Of a stretch of 64,000 nt of DNA, positions 8,667 through 21,603 are shown piece after piece. Source of the DNA: Isosphaeraceae bacterium EP7. Lineage in GTDB: Bacteria; Planctomycetota; Planctomycetia; Isosphaerales; Isosphaeraceae. The stretch lies in assembly GCA_038400315.1 (NCBI GenBank), contig CP151667.1, positions 6,335,174 through 6,399,173 on the forward strand, read 5' to 3'. Under the pieces are notes generated by a model. The model ran no database searches and had not been told where the DNA came from. It saw only the letters and a list, made by a program, of their open reading frames with translations. The first letter of the stretch is position 1. Every line of letters starts with the position of its first letter. The translations under genes and the position numbers were made by a program.

Positions 8667-11624
8667 ATGCAGCGCCGACGTGGCCGGATCATCGCGGAGC
8701 TGGCCGTCCTGGCCCTGGTCCTGGCCTGCCTGGCCGGTGCCCTGGGATCGGTGATGGCGATGCATCGCCGCCAGGCCATCGCCCGCATCGAGGCCGCCGA
8801 CCGCTCACGCACGCCGGCCCCCGTCGCACCCCCCAGCCCCGCGCCGATCATCGTCGCGGCCCCCGAGCCCGAACCTGAACCCGAGCTGGCCCCGGATCCG
8901 ATCCCAACGGGGCCAACGATCGACCCGACGCCGACGATCCTGGCGAAGGTCGACGCCCTGCGTGCCGAGCAGGCCCAGGAGGCGAGCGTGCTCGACCGCC
9001 GCTCGGCGGACTCACTGGCCGCGAAGGCGAAGGCCGAGCAGGAGGCCGATGACTGGCAGAGGCGCGAGGCCATGGCCCGCGCCGAGATCAATGCCGCCAT
9101 CTCACGCGCCGCGGATGCCGAGGCCGAAGCCGACGCGATCGCCCTGGAGCGTGATGCGCTGGCGCAGGATCGCGACGCCGCCAAGGCCGCGGTGTCGTCG
9201 GCCAAGGTCACGTCGAGCCACGCCGTGATGCCCAACAAGGCGGCAAACGGCACCTGGCGGGCCCCCATCGTGCTGGAATGCCACAACGGGATGGTGACCC
9301 TGCGCCCCGGCGGCCAGTCATTCAGCCTGATGGAGCTTTCCGCCTTCGGCCCCAGGTCGCACCCGCTCGTCGCCGCCGTGGCCCGCGAAGCCGCCCGCCT
9401 CCAGGGGGAGTCGCCCGACGGCGCCGAGACGGTCCCCTACCTGTTCTTCCTGGTCCGGCCCGACGGCGTGAGGCCTTACTACGAGGCCCGTGGCCGCCTG
9501 GAAAACCTGGGGATCGCCTTCGGCTACGAGCTGGTCGACGAAGGCTGGACCATCGACACCCCTGACCTTTCCCAGCCCGCCGAGTGGGGCCTCAAGCCCC
9601 GGCTCGCCCGCCCCCTTCATCCCGAAACACCCCTCGCCGCCGCACCTGCTCCTGCCCCTGCCCCTGCCGCCGTGGGCTCGGTCAACCGCGACACGACCGG
9701 CATCGGAGACCTGCCAGCCCCGGTTCGGCGAGTCGGCGGTTCCGCAGGCCGGCCCCCTGCCTCGTTCGGCAGGCCGGTCGCCGGCACTGTCCCCGGCGTC
9801 CCAAATGGGGCCGGTCCAGGCGGAACCGGGATCAGTCCGGTCGCCCGGGCGGGTTCGGAAGATCCAGGCGGCATCGGATCGGGAGTTGGTCATCTCGTCG
9901 GCTCCAATGGTCATGCTGCCGGAGGGGCAGGCGCAGGCGTCATCGGAGCCGGAACGGGCGGAAAGGGGCCCGAAGCCGGTGGCCTGGCTAACGGCAATAG
10001 CGGCGGGCCGGGCGCGAATGGGTCCGGCAGCCTGACCGGTCCGATCGGAAGTGGAACCGGGACCGGCACCGCAGCGGGCGGTACGGGCGGGCAGGGCCCC
10101 GGAACTCCGACCGTCGGAACTCTGGCCGGAGTCGGGACCGGCACCCTTGCGGGGGCCGATGGATCGGGCAACGGCTCGAATCCCGAAGGTGCGAACGACG
10201 CGGCACGCGGGAATGGCCCGGCCGGAACTCTGGCCTCCGGAAACGCATCCCCAGGCGGCGGAACACCTTCGGCCAACAACGACCCATCCAGGAATGGCGC
10301 CTCGGGCACCGGCAATGGCGAGAATTCTTCGCTTGCTGCATCCGGATCAGCGGGCGCCGGCAAGGGTGCGACGGCCGGCGACGCGGCCAAGGGGCCTGCG
10401 GCCTCGAAATTCGTCTGGGGCGGGGCCGGCGGCGCGGGCGGTCACGGCGGCCGTGGCCCGAAGGGGACGGCTAACGTCGCCGACTCGGGGGCCTTCGAAG
10501 GCGAGGAGGGGCAGGGGCCGGCCGGCGGTCGTCCCGGAATCTCCGACCTCGATGAGCTGACCGCCGGCGAAGGCACCGACCTTCCTCGCGGAGGCAAGCC
10601 GGCCGCCCAGGAGGGCCCCCTCGCCGATGCCGTCGGCCGGGCTTTACGCGGCCCGCTTCTGGGCGCCGGCGAAGGTTCCGACACCCGCAAGCCGATCGAG
10701 GGCGGCAGCGCCGACCCCCTGGAACAACCCGACCGCAGCCGCGTTGCCTTCAATGGCTTCGCGCCCAACGGCCGAGGCACGTATCCCGAGCCTGAACAGG
10801 GACAGCCAGGCAACGTCCCCGCGACCGCCAGGCCGGCCGAACTGCATCCCGATCTCGGCCAGGGACGGCTCGGGCCGAAGTCGGGCTCCTACTTCGCGGG
10901 AATGGATGACCTGCCGCGGACAAGCGGCTCCAGCGCCTCCGAAGGGTCCGCCTCGGAAACGAGCGACCGCGCCGACGCGAACGCCACCCCGGGCGACCCG
11001 TCGAACGGCGGAAACCCCGGGAGTTCCGGCAGCGGCGGGAAGGGGAGCGCAAGCTCGAAACCGAAGGGCAAACTCGGCAACGCGACGGGCGCGGGCGGCG
11101 GGGTCAACGTCGGCGGCAAGGCCAGCAGCGGCCAGCCCGGTGGCGGTGCCAGCATCGGCGGCGGCGGTTCCCCGGGTGCGGCCAGTCAGTCGGCCGGCGC
11201 CGGGATCGGCATGCCCTCGATGAACGTCGGCGGTGGCCAGCCCGGCGGCATCCCCCAGGCCGCCGTCGAGGGCATGGACCAGGGCTCACCCGACCTCCCC
11301 GAAGAATCCCTGGAACTCGTCGTCGCCTGCGGGCCGGGCGGGGTCGTCATCCAGCCGGGCGGCTATCGCCTGAGCAACGACGCGATGGCCAGAACCCCCG
11401 ACTCGCTCCGCTCGTTCCTCGTCTCCATCGCCGCCGAGCGCCAGCGGGCCAACATGGGCGTGCTCCTGCGACCGGGCGTCCGCTTCCTCATCGAGGTCGG
11501 CGGCCAGTCCACCTACGCCAAGGCCCGTCAGCAGACCATCCTCTCCGACCTCGACTGGCCCATCAGCCTGCAAGTTGCCGAAGGCAATTCCGGCGTGCTC
11601 CGTTCCAGGAGGCTCTTCGAATGA
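8667..11624 (+). CDS. Membrane-anchored envelope protein with huge Gly/Ala/Pro-rich linker
   Basis: 985 residues. One N-terminal membrane helix (about 9-31) is followed by a Pro/Glu-rich stretch (50-90), a coiled coil rich in Ala/Glu (95-180), a folded domain (198-300), about 570 residues of low-complexity Gly/Ala/Ser/Pro sequence (310-880), and a C-terminal folded domain (882-985). The two folded domains resemble each other: VTLRPGG then [18 protein letters not shown] in the first, VVIQPGGY then [17 protein letters not shown] in the second. This suggests two copies of one module held apart by a flexible spacer in the periplasm. The next gene overlaps by 4 bp (ATGA) and carries a related C-terminal domain. 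Function unknown. The 5' boundary is set by the ATG just before the membrane helix. Confidence 0.75.
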
Positions 11625-12727
11625 GCAAGCCGAATCCCCCAGCTCCAGAACCAGGCCTTCCCTCGACACCGTCCGCCGCCTGGATCGTCGGCCGCCTGGC
11701 CCTCGTCCTCGTCGCGGTCGGAGGCCTCGGAGCCCGCCTTTACTGGCAACCCGCCGCAAAGGCCCCTGCCCCGGCGCCGGTCGCCAGCACGGTCGCCGCT
11801 CCCGCGCCTCCCGTGGTGGTCGTGGCCCCGCCCGCCAAAAAGCCCAGGGTCAAGCCGGGGCCGCTCGTCGGGCCACCCAGGCCGGTCTACCTGGAACCCG
11901 ACAAGGCGAAGATCGCCGCGGCCGAGGCCCTGCTCGACGCCGTCACCCGCGAGCGGGCGATGGCCGAGGCCCGCGCCGTCGACACCGAGACCGACCTCGT
12001 CCGCGCCACCAATCGCGCCCGCCAGGCCGAACGCACGTTCCTCGCCCGCGGCGACCGCACCGCCGAGTTGCAAGAACGCCTCACCCTGGCCAGCCAGCGC
12101 GGGGGGTTCCTGAAGTCCGAGCGCGACCAGATCAAGAGCGAGCTTGCCACCCTGGCCAACATCCCCAGGCCCAAGGGCAAGACCCTCATCGCCAAGAACC
12201 CGGTCTCCCTGCCGGTCGACACCACTGAGGTCCATTTCGAGCTCCGGCGCGACCGGATCGCCCACCTCGACCTCGATCGCCTCATCGACCTGGTCAAGGC
12301 CGACGCCAAGCTCAGGCTCCGCCTGCATGGCTCGCCCAAGCCGATCAACTCCGTCGTCGGGCCCGTCGGCCCCTTCGCGCTCCGCTACCAGATGGGCCCC
12401 GACATGGACACCTCGATCAACTCGATGCTCGAGAACCGAGGCGTCACCTTCCTGCTCCAGGGCTGGGAAGTCGTCCCCGAGGGCGACGTCCGCGGCGAGA
12501 CCTACCCCACCACCCGCCACCCCGCCTCGGGCTACGCCCGCGTCATCAGCCGACACTCGCCCGAGGCCGCCGTCATCACCATGTGGGTCTACCCCGACAG
12601 CTTCCAGCTCTACCGCACCTTGCGAGACGAGCTGCAAGCCCACGGCTTCATGGTCGCAGCCCGCCCCTTGCCCGAGGGCCTGGCCATCCGAGGCAGCCCC
12701 AGCGGCTCCGTCTCCGCGGGCCAGTAA
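11621..12727 (+). CDS. Membrane-anchored coiled-coil protein, partner of the preceding gene
   Basis: 368 residues: one membrane helix (about 20-42), a Pro/Ala-rich linker, a charged coiled coil (about 85-165) and a C-terminal domain (205-355). The segment MWVYPDSFQLYRTLRDEL (about 320-337) aligns with [18 protein letters not shown] of the preceding protein, and both lead into a hydrophobic strand and a turn, so the two genes share a module. The start overlaps the stop of the upstream gene (ATGA), so they are translationally coupled. Architecture (anchor, coiled coil, distal domain) resembles periplasmic scaffold or trans-envelope proteins, but no known family is recognised. Confidence 0.75.
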   Translation: MSKPNPPAPEPGLPSTPSAAWIVGRLALVLVAVGGLGARLYWQPAAKAPAPAPVASTVAAPAPPVVVVAPPAKKPRVKPGPLVGPPRPVYLEPDKAKIAAAEALLDAVTRERAMAEARAVDTETDLVRATNRARQAERTFLARGDRTAELQERLTLASQRGGFLKSERDQIKSELATLANIPRPKGKTLIAKNPVSLPVDTTEVHFELRRDRIAHLDLDRLIDLVKADAKLRLRLHGSPKPINSVVGPVGPFALRYQMGPDMDTSINSMLENRGVTFLLQGWEVVPEGDVRGETYPTTRHPASGYARVISRHSPEAAVITMWVYPDSFQLYRTLRDELQAHGFMVAARPLPEGLAIRGSPSGSVSAGQ

Positions 12728-12865: not shown

Positions 12866-14974
12866 GTGGCGACCGACAATCCGAGATCGGTGCTCAGGCA
12901 GTTCCGCACCCTTTGCGAGGTCGGCGTTGCCCGCGACCTCACCGACGGCCAGCTCCTCGAACGGTACCTCGCCGCCCGCAACACCTCGGGGCATCTTGCG
13001 TTCGAGGCCCTCGTCGAACGCCACGGCCCCCTGGTCTGGCGTGCCTGCCGCTCGCACCTCTCCAACCCCGAAGACGTCCGCGACGCCGTCCAGGCCACCT
13101 TCCTCATCCTCCTGAAGCAGGCCCGATCCCTCTGGGTCAGGGACTCCCTCGGCCCCTGGCTGCACACCGTCGCCCTCCGCACCGCCCGCCGAGCCCACGC
13201 CGAAGCCGCCCGCCGCCGCCAGCTGTACCTACGCGTCGCCGACCACGGCACCCTTCAGTCTCAGACTAGCCCACCGCCTCTCGACGACCTGGAGCAGACC
13301 CTCCACGCCGAGATCGACCGCCTGCCCGAGCATCAGCGGGCCGCCATCATCCTCTGCGACCTCCAGGGCCAGTCCTGCGAGCAGGCCGCCCGCGCGCTCA
13401 ACCGTCCCGTCGGGACCATCAAGAGCTGGCGATCCCGGGCCCGAGACCGCCTCCGAGTCCGCCTCTCCCGGGCCGGCTTCGCCCCCGAAGGCGAGTTGTC
13501 CATCCCCCTCGCCACCGGCCTCGCCGCCCGTGGCCTCGCCGCGGCACAGGCCGACGTCGCCGTTCGCACGCTGACCCATCAAGCCATCATCGGAAACGTG
13601 TCATCCACCGTCCTCGGCCTTGTTCAAGGAGTGACCAGGACCATGCTCATCGCCATCGTCAGGAAGGCCGCCCTCACCGGCGTCGCGCTTCTTACCTGCA
13701 CAGGCGGCCTCGGCGTGATCGCCCGAGTTGCCACGGGTGAGGGCAAGGGCATCGAGACGCACCCGACACTCGTCTCCGCCCCTTCGAGGGAAGTCATCAA
13801 AGTGCCTCCGCTCTTGCAGACGGAGCCCTGGCGTCTGTCTCTCTCCGAGGCGATTCGCATCGGCCTGAGCAAGAAAGAACTGCGGAACGACGTCCGCCCC
13901 CCCGAGGATCACCCCGACGGATCGATCAAGATTGTCGCCGGTCCAAAGGTCGCCCCACATCGGTTCAAGGCCGAGGTCATGGCCTCTGCCCGGTTGATTG
14001 AGCAGCAGTATTGGGCCTTGGCCGAGCAGAAGCTCAAACTCGATGGATTTCGAAGGGCCGTCGAGGAGATCGGACTGGTTCTCAGGCGGGAACAAGTCGG
14101 ACTTGAGGTCGGCCGTGGCAACGTCGCCAATGTCGCAGAGGCCCGCAAGCGGCTTGAGCAAGCTCGCCTCAAGGAGGACAGGGCCTTCTCCGATGTCATC
14201 ACCTCCGATCATCAATTCAGGAACCTGCTCGGCCAGCCGGCCGCCGATGGGCGAAAGATCGTGCAAATCAACGACCCGCCAATCGCGGAGCCGCCCGCGC
14301 CGATCTGGGAGGAGTCTCTGGCCCAGATGCTTGCGTCGCAACCCGATGTGGTCGGAGTGACGGAGGAACTTCGGCTGGCCAAGGCAGATCCGGCAGCGAA
14401 ATCGGAGTTCAAGGTTCTGTCGGAACGACGCCAGCAAGTCATCGACCGGGCAACCCTCTCGCTTTCCCGTCATTTCCAGGAACTCGGCACCAACTTCAGA
14501 TGGCTCCAGGACGCGACGAAACTCAGAACAGCGGCCGGCGTTCGTCTCGATGCTCAGCGTGTTTTCTACGAGCAGGGCCGAATTCCACTCGATCGCTTCT
14601 TCGACGAGATCGACCAACAGGCGGACGCCATTGCCGCCCATGTTCAGGCCAAGACGAATTACAATACGTCGGTTGCCAATCTCGAAGAAGCGAAGGGGAC
14701 CTTACTCGATAAAAATAAGATCGTCATCACATTTTCTCCAAATGCGATTCCGTCACAATCCAAATCATTCGACCAGTCTAACCCCGTCCCCATTCCGCCG
14801 CCGACCACTCCCACCATCGCCTCGGACGACCATCCCGCCGCGACAATCCCTCACCCAGTCGAGACTTCAAACCCCGCCCTTGCCGACCGAACGTACTCGT
14901 TCCACTTCAGCCTCGGTTCCGGTCCCAAGCCGATCGAATTCCGCGGCTCCCTCACCATTCCCCCCAAAAACTGA
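12866..14974 (+). CDS. ECF sigma factor fused to a TolC-like alpha-helical domain
   Basis: 702 residues starting at GTG. Residues 40-115 are sigma region 2 (NPEDVRDAVQATFLILLKQA) and 140-200 are region 4 (RLPEHQRAAIILCDLQGQSC, then GTIKSWRSRARDRLR). A membrane helix follows at about 259-288. Residues 320-620 are clearly homologous to the TolC-family protein encoded at 18671-21094: both have RFKAEVMA, IEQQYWAL, LEVGRG, ANVAEAR, SDVIT and NLEEAKGTLL / ALEEAKGTLL at matching places. The beta-barrel strands of TolC are missing from the fusion. The tail (620-702) is Pro/Ser/Thr-rich. Planctomycete ECF sigma factors often carry membrane-anchored extensions that may sense envelope conditions; a TolC-like one is unusual. 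It lies 138 bp after the envelope-protein pair on the same strand. No anti-sigma gene is adjacent. Confidence 0.9.
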   Translation: MATDNPRSVLRQFRTLCEVGVARDLTDGQLLERYLAARNTSGHLAFEALVERHGPLVWRACRSHLSNPEDVRDAVQATFLILLKQARSLWVRDSLGPWLHTVALRTARRAHAEAARRRQLYLRVADHGTLQSQTSPPPLDDLEQTLHAEIDRLPEHQRAAIILCDLQGQSCEQAARALNRPVGTIKSWRSRARDRLRVRLSRAGFAPEGELSIPLATGLAARGLAAAQADVAVRTLTHQAIIGNVSSTVLGLVQGVTRTMLIAIVRKAALTGVALLTCTGGLGVIARVATGEGKGIETHPTLVSAPSREVIKVPPLLQTEPWRLSLSEAIRIGLSKKELRNDVRPPEDHPDGSIKIVAGPKVAPHRFKAEVMASARLIEQQYWALAEQKLKLDGFRRAVEEIGLVLRREQVGLEVGRGNVANVAEARKRLEQARLKEDRAFSDVITSDHQFRNLLGQPAADGRKIVQINDPPIAEPPAPIWEESLAQMLASQPDVVGVTEELRLAKADPAAKSEFKVLSERRQQVIDRATLSLSRHFQELGTNFRWLQDATKLRTAAGVRLDAQRVFYEQGRIPLDRFFDEIDQQADAIAAHVQAKTNYNTSVANLEEAKGTLLDKNKIVITFSPNAIPSQSKSFDQSNPVPIPPPTTPTIASDDHPAATIPHPVETSNPALADRTYSFHFSLGSGPKPIEFRGSLTIPPKN

Positions 14975-18670: not shown

Positions 18671-21094
18671 TCAAGGGGTGGCCGGCAGCGGGGGGAGGTC
18701 GATGGGGACATCCTGGATCGGCGGCTCGACGGCGGCCGGTTCGGGCGGGGCCGCGGCCGGTTCGGCCGGGGCGGGGGTCTCGACCGAGGCGGGCATCACG
18801 CCCGGCTCGGGGGCCGAGGCCGGCAGCTCGGCGAGAGCGGGCGGGGCCGGGGCGGTCGGGTCGGCGACGAGGGCGGGGTCCGCGGCCGGGGCCTCGGCCA
18901 TGGCCGGGGGGAGGGCCGGGAAGTCGGCGGGGGCCGGGGCGGCCTCGGACCGGATGTTGGGCTCGCCGACGGGGATGGTCGGGCCCATCGGGGTCGGCAG
19001 CGGCCCGAGCGGGCCGACGGGGGCCGGCAGCGGCGGGACGGTCCCGGAAGGAACACCTTCAGTCGGCGGGGCCTGAGTCGGCACCGGGTCGGGGATGACG
19101 GGGCCGACGACCGGCTCGGGGGTGTAGGGCCCGTCGCCGGGAACGCTCAGGCGGCGGTGGGCGCCCTGCTGGTCGCGGGCCTGCTGATAGGCACGACGCG
19201 GGTAGGGCCCTTCGGCGACCGCGATGTTGTTGTAGGCCAGGAGCGTTCCCTTGGCCTCTTCGAGGGCGACGATCGAGGTGTTGTAGCTCGTCTTGTACTG
19301 GGCCTCGGTCGCCACGGCGTTGGCATACTGGCTGACCGCGTCGAGGTAGCGGTCGATCAGGATCCGGCCTTCCTCATAGAAGGCACGCTGGGCGTCGAGA
19401 CGCTCGGCGGCCGCCTCTCGGACGTTGCGGGCCGTGCGGAACTGCTTGTAGTTGGCGTCCACTTCCAGGAAGAACCGGGCCAGCGAGTGGGTCGTCTGGT
19501 GGACGATCTGCTGGAGATAGGCCCGCTGACGCAGCAGCGAATACTGGGCCGACCGGGTGTTGGCCAGCGGTCCGCGGAAGCCGAGAGGCATCTGGAAGGT
19601 CAGGCCGACCTGCCAGGTCTCGAAGTTGTTGTAGTTGCCCGGCTGGGCCGGCAGGCCGGCGGCTCGCTGGAGGGCCGAGATCCGCGGGTCGATCGCCTTC
19701 AGGCTCGAGCCGGTCATCACCCCCTCGGACTTGCTGAGCGACTGGCCGAGGCCGTTGAACTGGTAGAGGGCGTTCAGGTTCAGGACCGGCAGGAGCTGGT
19801 TTCGGGCCAGCAGGAGCTGCAGTTCCGAGAGCCTGACGACCAGCTGCTGGGTGACGATGTCGGGCTGGAACGAGATCATCTGGGCCAGGCTCGATTCCCA
19901 GTCGGGCTCGACCCGGGCCTCGTTCGGCGGGGTCACCGGGATGATCCGGCGGTTGTCGGCGGGCGGCAGGCCCAGGATGTTCCTGAGCTGACGCTCGGTG
20001 GTGATGACGTCCGAAGTGGCCGTCACCAGGTTGAGCCGGAACTGCTCGAGCTGCTGGCGAGCCTCGGCGACGTTGGCGATGGTGCCTCGTCCCACTTCCA
20101 GCTCGGCCTGCTCACGCCTGAGGATTTCTTCGCCCAGGGTGACGGCGGCCTCGCGGCTCCAGAGCTGCACATGCTGCTGCGACAGGGCCCAGTACTGCTG
20201 CTCGATCGACCGGACGTGGGCCATGACCTCGGCCTTGAACCGCCAGACCGCCGCGTCGGCATTGAGCCGGGCGATGACGATCGGGGCGCGGTTGGCCTCC
20301 AGGCCGCTGGGGTTCTGGGCCGTGCCGCCGAGCAACGGCTGGGTGATCTGCAGCTGCGTGTTGGTGGTGTAGGCCGACGGATAAACGTTGATCGGGCTGT
20401 TGGTGTAGGCGAAGTTGATGTTGTGCTGGATCTGCAACACCGAGCCGGTCGCGGTCCGCTTCTGGAGCGTGGACTGCAACTGGCCGGTGTCCTGCTGGAA
20501 CAGAATCGGATAGCGGGCCCCGGCGGAGATCGTGCCCGCCGCGATCCCGTTGTTCAACGGCGTGAAGCTCTTGCCGTAGAACAGGTTGGTCGAGAGCTGG
20601 GCGTCGAAGGTCGAGAGCGCCTGGGCGATCTGCGTCTCCTGGATCGCCGGGTCATACACCGTCTGAAGCTGACCGGCGCCCAGCGAGCTGGCGACCCCGG
20701 CCCCGGCCCCGTTGTTCAAGGGGGTGGGCTCGAAGCCGCTGACCGGAATCCCCTGGGCACCCAGCGAGATGACGCGGATGACCTCGGAGTTATCCAGGCC
20801 GATGCGGATGGCCTCCTCCAGCGACATCGGCCAGAGCTCTTCGGCCTCGGGGTCGTTGGTGGTCCTTGGCTTGGCCACCTTCGGCAGGGGCATGGGCAGT
20901 TGGCTGGTGAACGCCGTCGGCTTGAGCAGGCCGTCCCGCTTTACCTCGGCGTCTTCCTCGCGGATCGTGCCGGCCCTGTCATGAGGAACAGTCTTGGCCT
21001 GGTCGATGTAGGGCAGCCGCTGGCAGCCGGGGGCGACGACGCACGCCGTCAGCATCGCCAGGGCCAGCCGTCGTTTAGGAAGGGTCAATCGCAT
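18671..21094 (-). CDS. TolC family outer-membrane efflux protein
   Basis: 807 residues. The N-terminus has a hydrophobic export signal with a cysteine (VVAPGCQRL, C24), so it is probably a lipoprotein as in NodT-type factors. The OEP repeats follow: LSLEEAIRIGL-type opening (seen as MSLEEAIRIGL), a first helical hairpin with FKAEVMAHVRSIEQQYWALS and ANVAEARQQLEQFRL, beta-strand segments, and a second hairpin ending ALEEAKGTLL. The last ~190 residues are Pro/Ala-rich, much longer than in TolC (about 470 aa). It should form the outer-membrane channel of an efflux or type I export system; no pump or adaptor gene is adjacent. ATG at 21094 is chosen just before the signal; 21124 is an in-frame alternative. 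Residues are homologous to the sigma-factor fusion at 12866-14974. Confidence 0.92.
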   Translation of the reverse strand: MRLTLPKRRLALAMLTACVVAPGCQRLPYIDQAKTVPHDRAGTIREEDAEVKRDGLLKPTAFTSQLPMPLPKVAKPRTTNDPEAEELWPMSLEEAIRIGLDNSEVIRVISLGAQGIPVSGFEPTPLNNGAGAGVASSLGAGQLQTVYDPAIQETQIAQALSTFDAQLSTNLFYGKSFTPLNNGIAAGTISAGARYPILFQQDTGQLQSTLQKRTATGSVLQIQHNINFAYTNSPINVYPSAYTTNTQLQITQPLLGGTAQNPSGLEANRAPIVIARLNADAAVWRFKAEVMAHVRSIEQQYWALSQQHVQLWSREAAVTLGEEILRREQAELEVGRGTIANVAEARQQLEQFRLNLVTATSDVITTERQLRNILGLPPADNRRIIPVTPPNEARVEPDWESSLAQMISFQPDIVTQQLVVRLSELQLLLARNQLLPVLNLNALYQFNGLGQSLSKSEGVMTGSSLKAIDPRISALQRAAGLPAQPGNYNNFETWQVGLTFQMPLGFRGPLANTRSAQYSLLRQRAYLQQIVHQTTHSLARFFLEVDANYKQFRTARNVREAAAERLDAQRAFYEEGRILIDRYLDAVSQYANAVATEAQYKTSYNTSIVALEEAKGTLLAYNNIAVAEGPYPRRAYQQARDQQGAHRRLSVPGDGPYTPEPVVGPVIPDPVPTQAPPTEGVPSGTVPPLPAPVGPLGPLPTPMGPTIPVGEPNIRSEAAPAPADFPALPPAMAEAPAADPALVADPTAPAPPALAELPASAPEPGVMPASVETPAPAEPAAAPPEPAAVEPPIQDVPIDLPPLPATP

Positions 21095-21603
21095 GGCCAG
21101 ACCGTCCTTGACTTTGGGCGCCATGTGACGAGCGAGACCGGGTCCGTCGCGTCCGGTCGTCCCCGCTCGGGTGACCACCGGGCTGGAAGAGCCCGATCCG
21201 CGGCCGGCCGCGTCCATACAGCCTGCACCGCATCGGTCGTGATCCATGTCCGCTCCGAACCGATTCCCACGTCACGCGGCCGGGCCGGGCCGGGCCCGGA
21301 CGACCTACGTCTTCGTAAAGGCAACAAACCAGCGACCCGCGAGTCATCGCGAGGCTTCCTGGTTCATCACCGATCGCGTCATGGGGTTGTATCGGACAAA
21401 ACGGATGTGCGTCTTGAGGCGAGCGTGCGGATTATAGGGGGGAATCCGGAATCAATCCACCGCAACCGCCCATTCAACTGGCCGGCCACCCAGTAAGCTT
21501 CGTGACCATTCGAACGGGCAAAGGGCCGGGCCCCGTCTTCGACGGCCCCAGCCCAGTTCCAATCGAAAGACGCCCAGAATCCCGGCAACGACGCCGGCAC
21601 AGG
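21095..21603. other. Intergenic region with candidate TolC promoter
   Basis: 509 bp between the TolC gene and an Mpo1-like gene on the same strand. On the minus strand a perfect TATAAT lies at 21436-21431, the only near-consensus -10 box I found here, but the -35 match 17 bp upstream (TGGATT) is weak and it would leave a 5' leader of about 330 nt. A G/C run (GGCCGGGCCGGGCCGGGC) lies near 21273-21290. No coding sequence or RNA gene is convincing. Confidence 0.3.

Follow-up and report, generated by a model that had tools for sequence, protein, structure and literature searches.

Among ECF sigma factors that carry an extension of their own, IutY has one that is FecR-like. IutY is a sigma factor fused to a membrane-spanning extension, and proteolysis involving Prc and RseP activates it (PMC8999054). 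In the groups ECF48, ECF52 and ECF53 the extensions are fused anti-sigma (zinc-finger) parts, and members of ECF57 have long C-terminal extensions, WD40 in some, together with a conserved pair of cysteines through which sigma2 and sigma4 may be linked (PMC8999054). In the lower half of TolC, H3-H4 and H7-H8 form two coiled coils, and AcrA was docked into the grooves that they define (PMC8277102).

We analysed a stretch of 64,000 nucleotides (the window) that contains a gene for an ECF sigma factor joined to part of TolC. Like ECF57, the product has sigma2 and sigma4, a long C-terminal extension and a conserved cysteine pair, here Cys61 and Cys164 (positions of the ECF57 pair are not given in the section cited); unlike ECF57, it carries TolC hairpins as a putative input domain, and a tail of its own, behind a predicted membrane helix. 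By the cysteine pair, we provisionally regard the window family as ECF57-like. With IutY and with ECF48, ECF52 and ECF53, as described in PMC8999054, it shares the fusion of a sigma factor to a membrane-spanning extension; unlike the latter three groups, its Pfam scan found no anti-sigma domain. It resembles the TolC/OMF family (PF02321) in the helical hairpins of both OEP repeats (Z about 23) and differs from it in having no barrel segments, a sigma factor in front and its own tail. The same bacterial family also has ECF-HlyD fusions, in which the same anchored sigma type is extended by a tripartite pump component, although there it is an adaptor (MFP) and not an outer membrane factor. Anchored or extended ECFs are already known. 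Among the titles and abstract openings that our literature searches listed, none spoke of an ECF-TolC or ECF-HlyD fusion, so that extensions by TolC hairpins or HlyD did not turn up there; ECF classification papers may mention one.

The anchored ECFs of Isosphaeraceae, about ten to 75 per genome, have extensions that are largely unexplained. In this fusion the extension is a recognisable docking half of a known machine and a neighbouring clade bears the adaptor, which makes the sensing question directly testable. We propose, in a judgement evenly poised between acceptance and doubt, that the protein is an ECF57-like sigma factor, anchored in the membrane, with a periplasmic part that mimics the adaptor-docking half of TolC and reads the assembly or occupancy of a pump. 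If this is true, it would give the cell a way to follow the assembly of export pumps in its envelope that needs no anti-sigma factor.

An ECF sigma factor fused to a TolC region

The features of the two genes are as follows (residues refer to the encoded protein).

12866..14974, + strand: gene of the fusion (ECF sigma factor, membrane helix, TolC part without barrel), GTG start, 702 aa
13010..13213, + strand: sigma-70 region 2 with invariant Cys61, aa 49-116 (Pfam Sigma70_r2, 1.1e-10)
13298..13453, + strand: sigma-70 region 4 with invariant Cys164, aa 145-196 (Pfam Sigma70_r4_2, 6.4e-13)
13643..13723, + strand: predicted single membrane helix, aa 260-286 (hydropathy)
13955..14230, + strand: coiled-coil hairpin 1, taken as TolC H3/H4, aa 364-455 (AF2; OEP profile 106-187)
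14390..14695, + strand: coiled-coil hairpin 2, taken as TolC H7/H8, aa 509-610 (AF2; BLASTP)
14888..14959, + strand: conserved C-terminal tail, predicted beta-hairpin, aa 675-698 (tail model; pLDDT about 90)
18671..21247, - strand: resident full-length TolC-family protein, 858 aa (Pfam OEP, 1.8e-32; BLASTP)
20318..20707, - strand: first strand-bearing region of the resident TolC, aa 181-310, unmatched in all 8 fusions (alignment occupancy)
19568..19807, - strand: second strand-bearing region of the resident TolC, aa 481-560, for the most part unmatched in the 8 fusions (alignment occupancy)

The fusion gene is one intact ORF, open over all 702 codons. The GC content of codon position 3 exceeds that of the other two positions in 6 of its 7 full 300-nt bins and drops from 0.89 to 0.67 toward the 3' end. 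Near-full-length homologues in other genomes (aligned over residues 1-700, for example) argue against an assembly join or a frameshift, and with the open frame and the codon-position signal they led us to reject both. Neither a join or frameshift, nor a lack of fused homologues, nor a C-terminal region without an OEP match, the three outcomes that the original prediction had named as speaking against it, was found.

The N-terminus is the sigma domain, with 41.6 bits for region 2 (curated Pfam cut-off 24) and 48.6 bits for region 4 (cut-off 25.7); by both regions the window protein is an ECF sigma factor, and Pfam confirmed the two regions that had been proposed from the letters. A membrane helix had also been predicted to follow them, in agreement with hydropathy and with a full-length AF2 model that has one helix at 247-285, at low confidence. 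The suggested search of the C-terminal region with OEP profiles gave a match above cut-off, in two stretches (protein E 1.1e-09, 38.8 bits against 22).

The full-length TolC encoded in the window matches the fusion in two BLASTP blocks, 47% over fusion residues 366-544 (E 7e-38) and 39% over 496-670 (E 1e-30). The five short words that had been quoted as common to the two proteins are present in the same order in this TolC. The homology stands, in two blocks and not as one block of 300 residues, with TolC 181-310 and most of 481-560 unmatched. The gene itself had been placed at 18671-21094; it lies on the minus strand and extends to 21247. It encodes the sole protein-search match of the fused region in its own genome at E<=0.001, where the OEP profile detects nine further proteins, and it is matched at E<=1e-60 in all 45 genomes of the family. 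An Mpo1-like gene lies near it. Next to the window TolC we saw no gene for an adaptor, which counts against docking.

A Pfam scan of six flanking window proteins revealed no anti-sigma domain, consistent with the expectation that the fusion works with no separate anti-sigma factor. When the window was compared with six other fusion loci (G017 was left out because its contig ends too near the fusion), no neighbour was conserved beyond the pair G037/G041, a further point against the docking proposal. Two overlapping genes lie upstream of the fusion, at 8667-11624 and 11621-12727 (+); one of the products (985 aa) is very Gly-rich, and neither matched a Pfam family at E<=0.001.

The fused region retains TolC hairpins and lacks the strand-bearing segments

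We aligned the 8 fusions identified in this work with 21 TolC proteins (one partial) and scored occupancy in 10-residue bins. Across the 8 fusions, occupancy was 0 in every bin of TolC 181-310 and ranged from 0 to 0.47 in the bins of 481-560 (0.01 at 491-500, 0 at 531-550), and TolC 331-470 and 581-670 were retained. The strand-bearing segments of the TolC beta-barrel are therefore missing in 8 of 8 fusions and the hairpin columns are kept. None of the 8 has the two transmembrane beta-strands per TolC repeat that mark the family, and the window fusion has its OEP match and the helical hairpins of both repeats. What remains of TolC in the fusion, as aligned, is the adaptor-facing half; the membrane part is gone, together with the helices leading to it.

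An AF2 model of residues 300-702 (24 rows; pLDDT 83.9, pTM 0.73) has no barrel and consists of a pair of long helical hairpins with short strands and a beta-hairpin at the C-terminus; since its input alignment included full TolC rows, it depends in part on TolC itself. The full-length model was weaker (pLDDT 70.7). Foldseek returned 44 PDB matches to the fused-domain model at E<=0.001, all of them TolC-family channels, and VIA-align, which compared only chains ranked high by Foldseek, aligned 275 residues to TolC 1ek9 at Z 23.3. The structure prediction that had been called for thus recovers TolC-like hairpins and no TolC barrel.

With the strand-bearing segments absent from every fusion, we do not expect a TolC-type pore. 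A TolC channel function of the fused part was rejected on the missing segments together with the barrel-free model.

The hairpin tips matched the core consensus at 0.71 and 0.74, compared with 0.68 and 0.69 for hairpin 1 and 0.58 and 0.64 for hairpin 2. Tip conservation is not much better than that of hairpin 1, though above that of hairpin 2, and this counts against docking.

Distribution of the fusion and of standalone barrel-deleted copies

Searches were made with the whole protein in 99 genomes, with the C-terminal part in 45 genomes of the host family and with the fusion alignment in 397 genomes of the class. The survey of related genomes that had been suggested found the same architecture in 8 of the 397 (G000, which is the window's own genome, G009, G017, G018, G023, G037, G041 and G042), all among the 45 of the family. 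The profile search, with a model built from the fusions themselves and the two best candidates scored per genome, found no fusion at E<=1e-80 in the other 352 class genomes. Because the GTDB TolC orthologues include those of Singulisphaera acidiphila, Paludisphaera soli, Aquisphaera insulae and Tautonia sociabilis, the 45-genome family is Isosphaeraceae. The Pfam domain matches were repeated in 4 of 4 other fusions scanned, with OEP below cut-off in one (L048).

Seven fusion copies are free of frame breaks over their matched length. In G042 the copy is broken: the start of the sigma part lies in an ORF of 83 aa, and a repeat-like stretch separates this ORF from the remainder of the gene. The patchy presence in 8 of 45 family genomes and the one broken copy count against the docking proposal. 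At L094:7027-9407 (G042), the repeat-like insertion splits the gene within sigma region 2.

Barrel-deleted TolC copies with no sigma domain were found in G024, G007, G004, G029, G041 and G037, those of G041 and G037 with their second strand-bearing region still in place; G002, G021, G017, G030 and G043 have copies that are more diverged, longer or partial. Since such copies exist without a sigma domain, loss of the barrel segments is not tied to the sigma factor. In stretches of 3 to 18 kb around the standalone copies, we saw no ECF of the anchored type. By eye, six of these copies (L127, L128, L129, L131, L136 and L137) have a signal-like N-terminus and a fusion-like tail. In L130 and L132 (G002 and G021), the barrel-less TolC region is preceded by an unrelated N-terminal stretch of about 540 residues.

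The sigma and TolC parts of the fusions have different trees

A tree of sigma regions was built from 80 rows, the 8 fusions and 72 other ECFs drawn from the best matches and not from every paralogue. The 8 fusions formed one clade (support 100/96), and the clade nearest to them, of 10 ECFs (100/98), was joined at 93/88 (not starred) under a midpoint root. A tree of TolC helices that held all 8 fusions (one standalone row omitted) rejected a single fusion clade at p-AU 0.00106, as did a second tree with 7 fusions (p-AU 0.0013), which used 24 of 42 cores and omitted the broken fusion and six standalone rows. As aligned here, the sigma and TolC parts of the fusions have different trees.

The G018 fusion clustered with the TolC of G018 itself in both TolC trees (98/91 and 99/91), and the fusions of G023, G037 and G041 clustered together (97/91 and 90/91). 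Those of G009 and G017 had no resolved position among the TolC cores. The position of the window copy was open in the first tree; in the second it joined the standalone copy of G029 weakly (78/88) and did not join its own TolC, which again counts against docking. The tree program flagged long branches in both TolC trees.

We ranked the resident TolC of each genome among 42 TolC cores of the 45 genomes (G041, G032 and G044 missing). The resident core ranked 1 for the fusions of G000 and G018, 2 for G009, 3 for G017, 4 for G023, 6 for G037 and 20 for G042. For G009 and G017, the cores at or above the resident belong to the same genus, and TolC of the same genome or genus stood on top for 4 of the 7 testable fusions. 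The margin of the resident core was small for the window fusion (50.2% vs 45.2%, sd 2.8). Of the 10 standalone copies with a resident core, five had it at rank 1 (in some cases level with that of a congener), two at rank 2 and one each at ranks 9, 10 and 16. For six of the 8 fusions a core TolC came nearer than every other fusion did; G037 and G041 were nearest each other.

A scan for shared DNA tracts covered 15 pairs, and seven tracts were then compared with other cores; the permutation p-values were not diagnostic alone, as those of controls against other cores were also low. Two of the seven were clearly resident-specific. In the G018 fusion, a tract of 32 codons (TolC 589-620) has the same codon as the resident at 28 of 28 identical residues, compared with 76 of 128 outside it (Fisher 3.5e-6, for a tract chosen after scanning), and matches the resident at 95.8% of nucleotides vs 81.2% for the next core; this tract looks like gene conversion. 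The other, in the standalone copy of G004 (380-428), has the same codon as its resident at 41 of 48 identical residues, compared with 74 of 118 outside it (p 0.005), and matches at 93.9% of nucleotides vs 82.3% for the next core. The tract of the standalone copy S_G024 is short and a weaker case, and the remaining tracts were not resident-specific: that of the G023 fusion is nearly equalled by the TolC of another genome (0.931 vs 0.917), and those of the G009 and G017 fusions are likewise near-matched by other TolC. Gene conversion was rejected for the window copy, whose only tract is 8 codons, identical in the TolC of other genomes.

These results bear on three accounts of the conflict between the trees. 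If gene conversion accounts for the resident match seen in some genomes, it would be an unusual way to keep a sensor tuned to its target. In the fullest form of that account, the barrel-less docking face would be matched to the resident TolC by conversion, and the fusions and the neighbouring MFP-bearing lineage would together read tripartite pump assembly, contacting the same hairpin interfaces or competing for them, and would switch genes with no anti-sigma factor. We consider so complete a self-updating sensor improbable, and hold it lower because the resident match extends to only 4 of 7 fusions and the window copy stands apart from its own TolC. A tentative possibility, better in our estimate, is that one sigma lineage repeatedly captured the resident TolC or a standalone barrel-less copy. 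Possible donors occur in several family genomes, the window copy joins one of them, if weakly, and clear resident-specific tracts are confined to one fusion and one standalone copy among the seven. Repeated capture sits poorly with the common tail and the shared set of missing segments in all 8 fusions, and with the codon-for-codon agreement of the G018 tract. We think it rather unlikely that one fusion was inherited vertically throughout and that long branches and fast evolution merely make the trees seem to conflict. The long-branch warnings, the grouping of G023, G037 and G041, and resident ranks of 4, 6 and 20 for G023, G037 and G042 speak for such an artefact; against it stand a p-AU of 0.001 in two data sets, and the association of the G018 fusion with its own TolC in both trees and in its synonymous tract.

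The conserved tail and selection on the fusion

The fusions end in a conserved motif that follows a proline-rich linker. A tail model of 33 positions, built from 6 of the 8 fusions, was run on the 45 family genomes at E<=0.02 and gave 8 matches, exactly the 8 fusions; the standalone copies' tails were not picked up at this threshold. The two matches outside the model-building set were G037 (1.6e-17) and, weakly, G009 (7.3e-4). Invariant tail positions persist across distant fusion copies.

In the one close pair compared, G041/G037, dN/dS was 0.10 for sigma, 0.135 for the tail and 0.47 for the hairpins. In this pair, sigma and tail are under strong purifying selection, and the hairpins evolve faster than sigma, which speaks against docking. 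These values bear on the suggestion that the fusion is decaying or neutral and has no function. Hairpins evolving at this rate, a patchy occurrence with one copy split by a repeat-like insertion, and a codon-position signal that weakens at the 3' end of the window gene would all fit decay; selection on sigma and tail in the pair tested, seven copies unbroken over their matched length and the invariant tail positions in distant copies would not, and we consider decay very improbable.

Anchored ECFs with other extensions and the ECF-HlyD clade

At E<=1e-40 the window's own genome has 20 ECFs of the anchored type, the window protein included, and the seven other fusion-bearing genomes, some of them incomplete, have 11 to 75 each. 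A hydrophobic segment near 230-315 is present in 18 of the 19 others of the own genome. Pfam scans of these 19 detected C-terminal WD40 (strong in L005 and L036, weak in L004), PD40 (L031), HlyD (L040), Poly_export (L006 and L018), DUF1559 (L019), CarboxypepD_reg with a thioredoxin-like C-terminal domain (L033 and L038) and a sub-threshold CBM9 (L020); the remaining eight had no convincing C-terminal match. For L036 the sigma regions lie outside the matches listed, and the frame of L012 extends beyond its locus. To judge by these matches, the anchored ECFs of this genome carry very different C-terminal domains, several of them kin to envelope or export proteins. Every one of the 80 anchored ECFs aligned has Cys61 and Cys164. 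One anchored ECF, L222 (G014:C13, around 48788), lies in an open frame of 2294 aa.

The clade next to the fusions in the sigma tree is the ECF-HlyD clade: HlyD/MFP domains were recognised by eye in 10 of 10 members (some cut by contig ends) and by Pfam in 5 of 5 scanned. L040 (G000:C1:271456-273774, minus) belongs to it and combines an ECF sigma factor, a membrane helix and an HlyD/MFP domain. Among 28 MFP cores its best match is the resident MacA-like MFP (39.4% vs a mean of 33.8%). ECF-HlyD matches cover most of the model in 12 genomes and part of it in 3 to 5 more, all in the host family; in the other 352 class genomes, the two candidates scored for each included none that matched at E<=1e-100. 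At L293:4203-11089, OEP, MFP, ABC ATPase and MacB/FtsX permease genes stand in one row, and this MFP is the parent of ECF-HlyD; by its predicted products, the row is a MacAB-type export arrangement. Across the clade, the resident ranked 1 for 3 of 10 members with a resident core (G000, G004 and G017) and 14 for two, so the resident-match pattern appears weaker for ECF-HlyD than for ECF-TolC. ECF-HlyD occurs in 5 of 8 ECF-TolC genomes vs 10-12 of 37 others (Fisher p 0.09-0.23); co-occurrence in the family genomes is not significant, and this counts against the docking proposal.

A candidate sensor of pump assembly

In the mechanism that we propose, a cytoplasmic ECF sigma domain would be tethered by one membrane helix. 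The part beyond the helix, which we infer to be periplasmic, would be a TolC protomer without its beta-barrel, consisting of hairpins H3/H4 and H7/H8, with which TolC contacts its adaptor, and the conserved tail. An adaptor (MFP) or an assembled pump would occupy the hairpins, as it does with the cell's TolC, and occupancy would change the ability of the sigma domain to engage RNA polymerase. The switch may be a conformational change through the Cys61/Cys164 pair, or proteolytic release, for which the activation of IutY is a precedent; M50 proteases are encoded in the own genome.

The hairpins may instead be a generic coiled-coil module for interaction or oligomerisation, taken from TolC, with an unrelated partner switching the sigma factor, as has been proposed for extensions of the ECF57 and ECF42 type. 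We judge this somewhat unlikely. The 19 further anchored ECFs of the own genome, with such unrelated domains as WD40, HlyD, Poly_export, thioredoxin-like and DUF1559, argue for a generic module, as do the fast evolution of the hairpins and the unremarkable conservation of their tips. Against a generic module, 4 of 7 testable fusions are nearest the TolC of their own genome or genus, and the neighbouring sigma clade bears an adaptor of the same kind of machinery. The original prediction went further, gave the sigma factor a periplasmic domain like an efflux channel and suggested that it could sense the efflux state directly, as it may. The OEP profile match agrees with a channel-like domain, but the strand-bearing segments are absent from all 8 fusions, the AF2 model has no barrel, and a channel is hardly credible; what stays of TolC is its coiled-coil hairpins.
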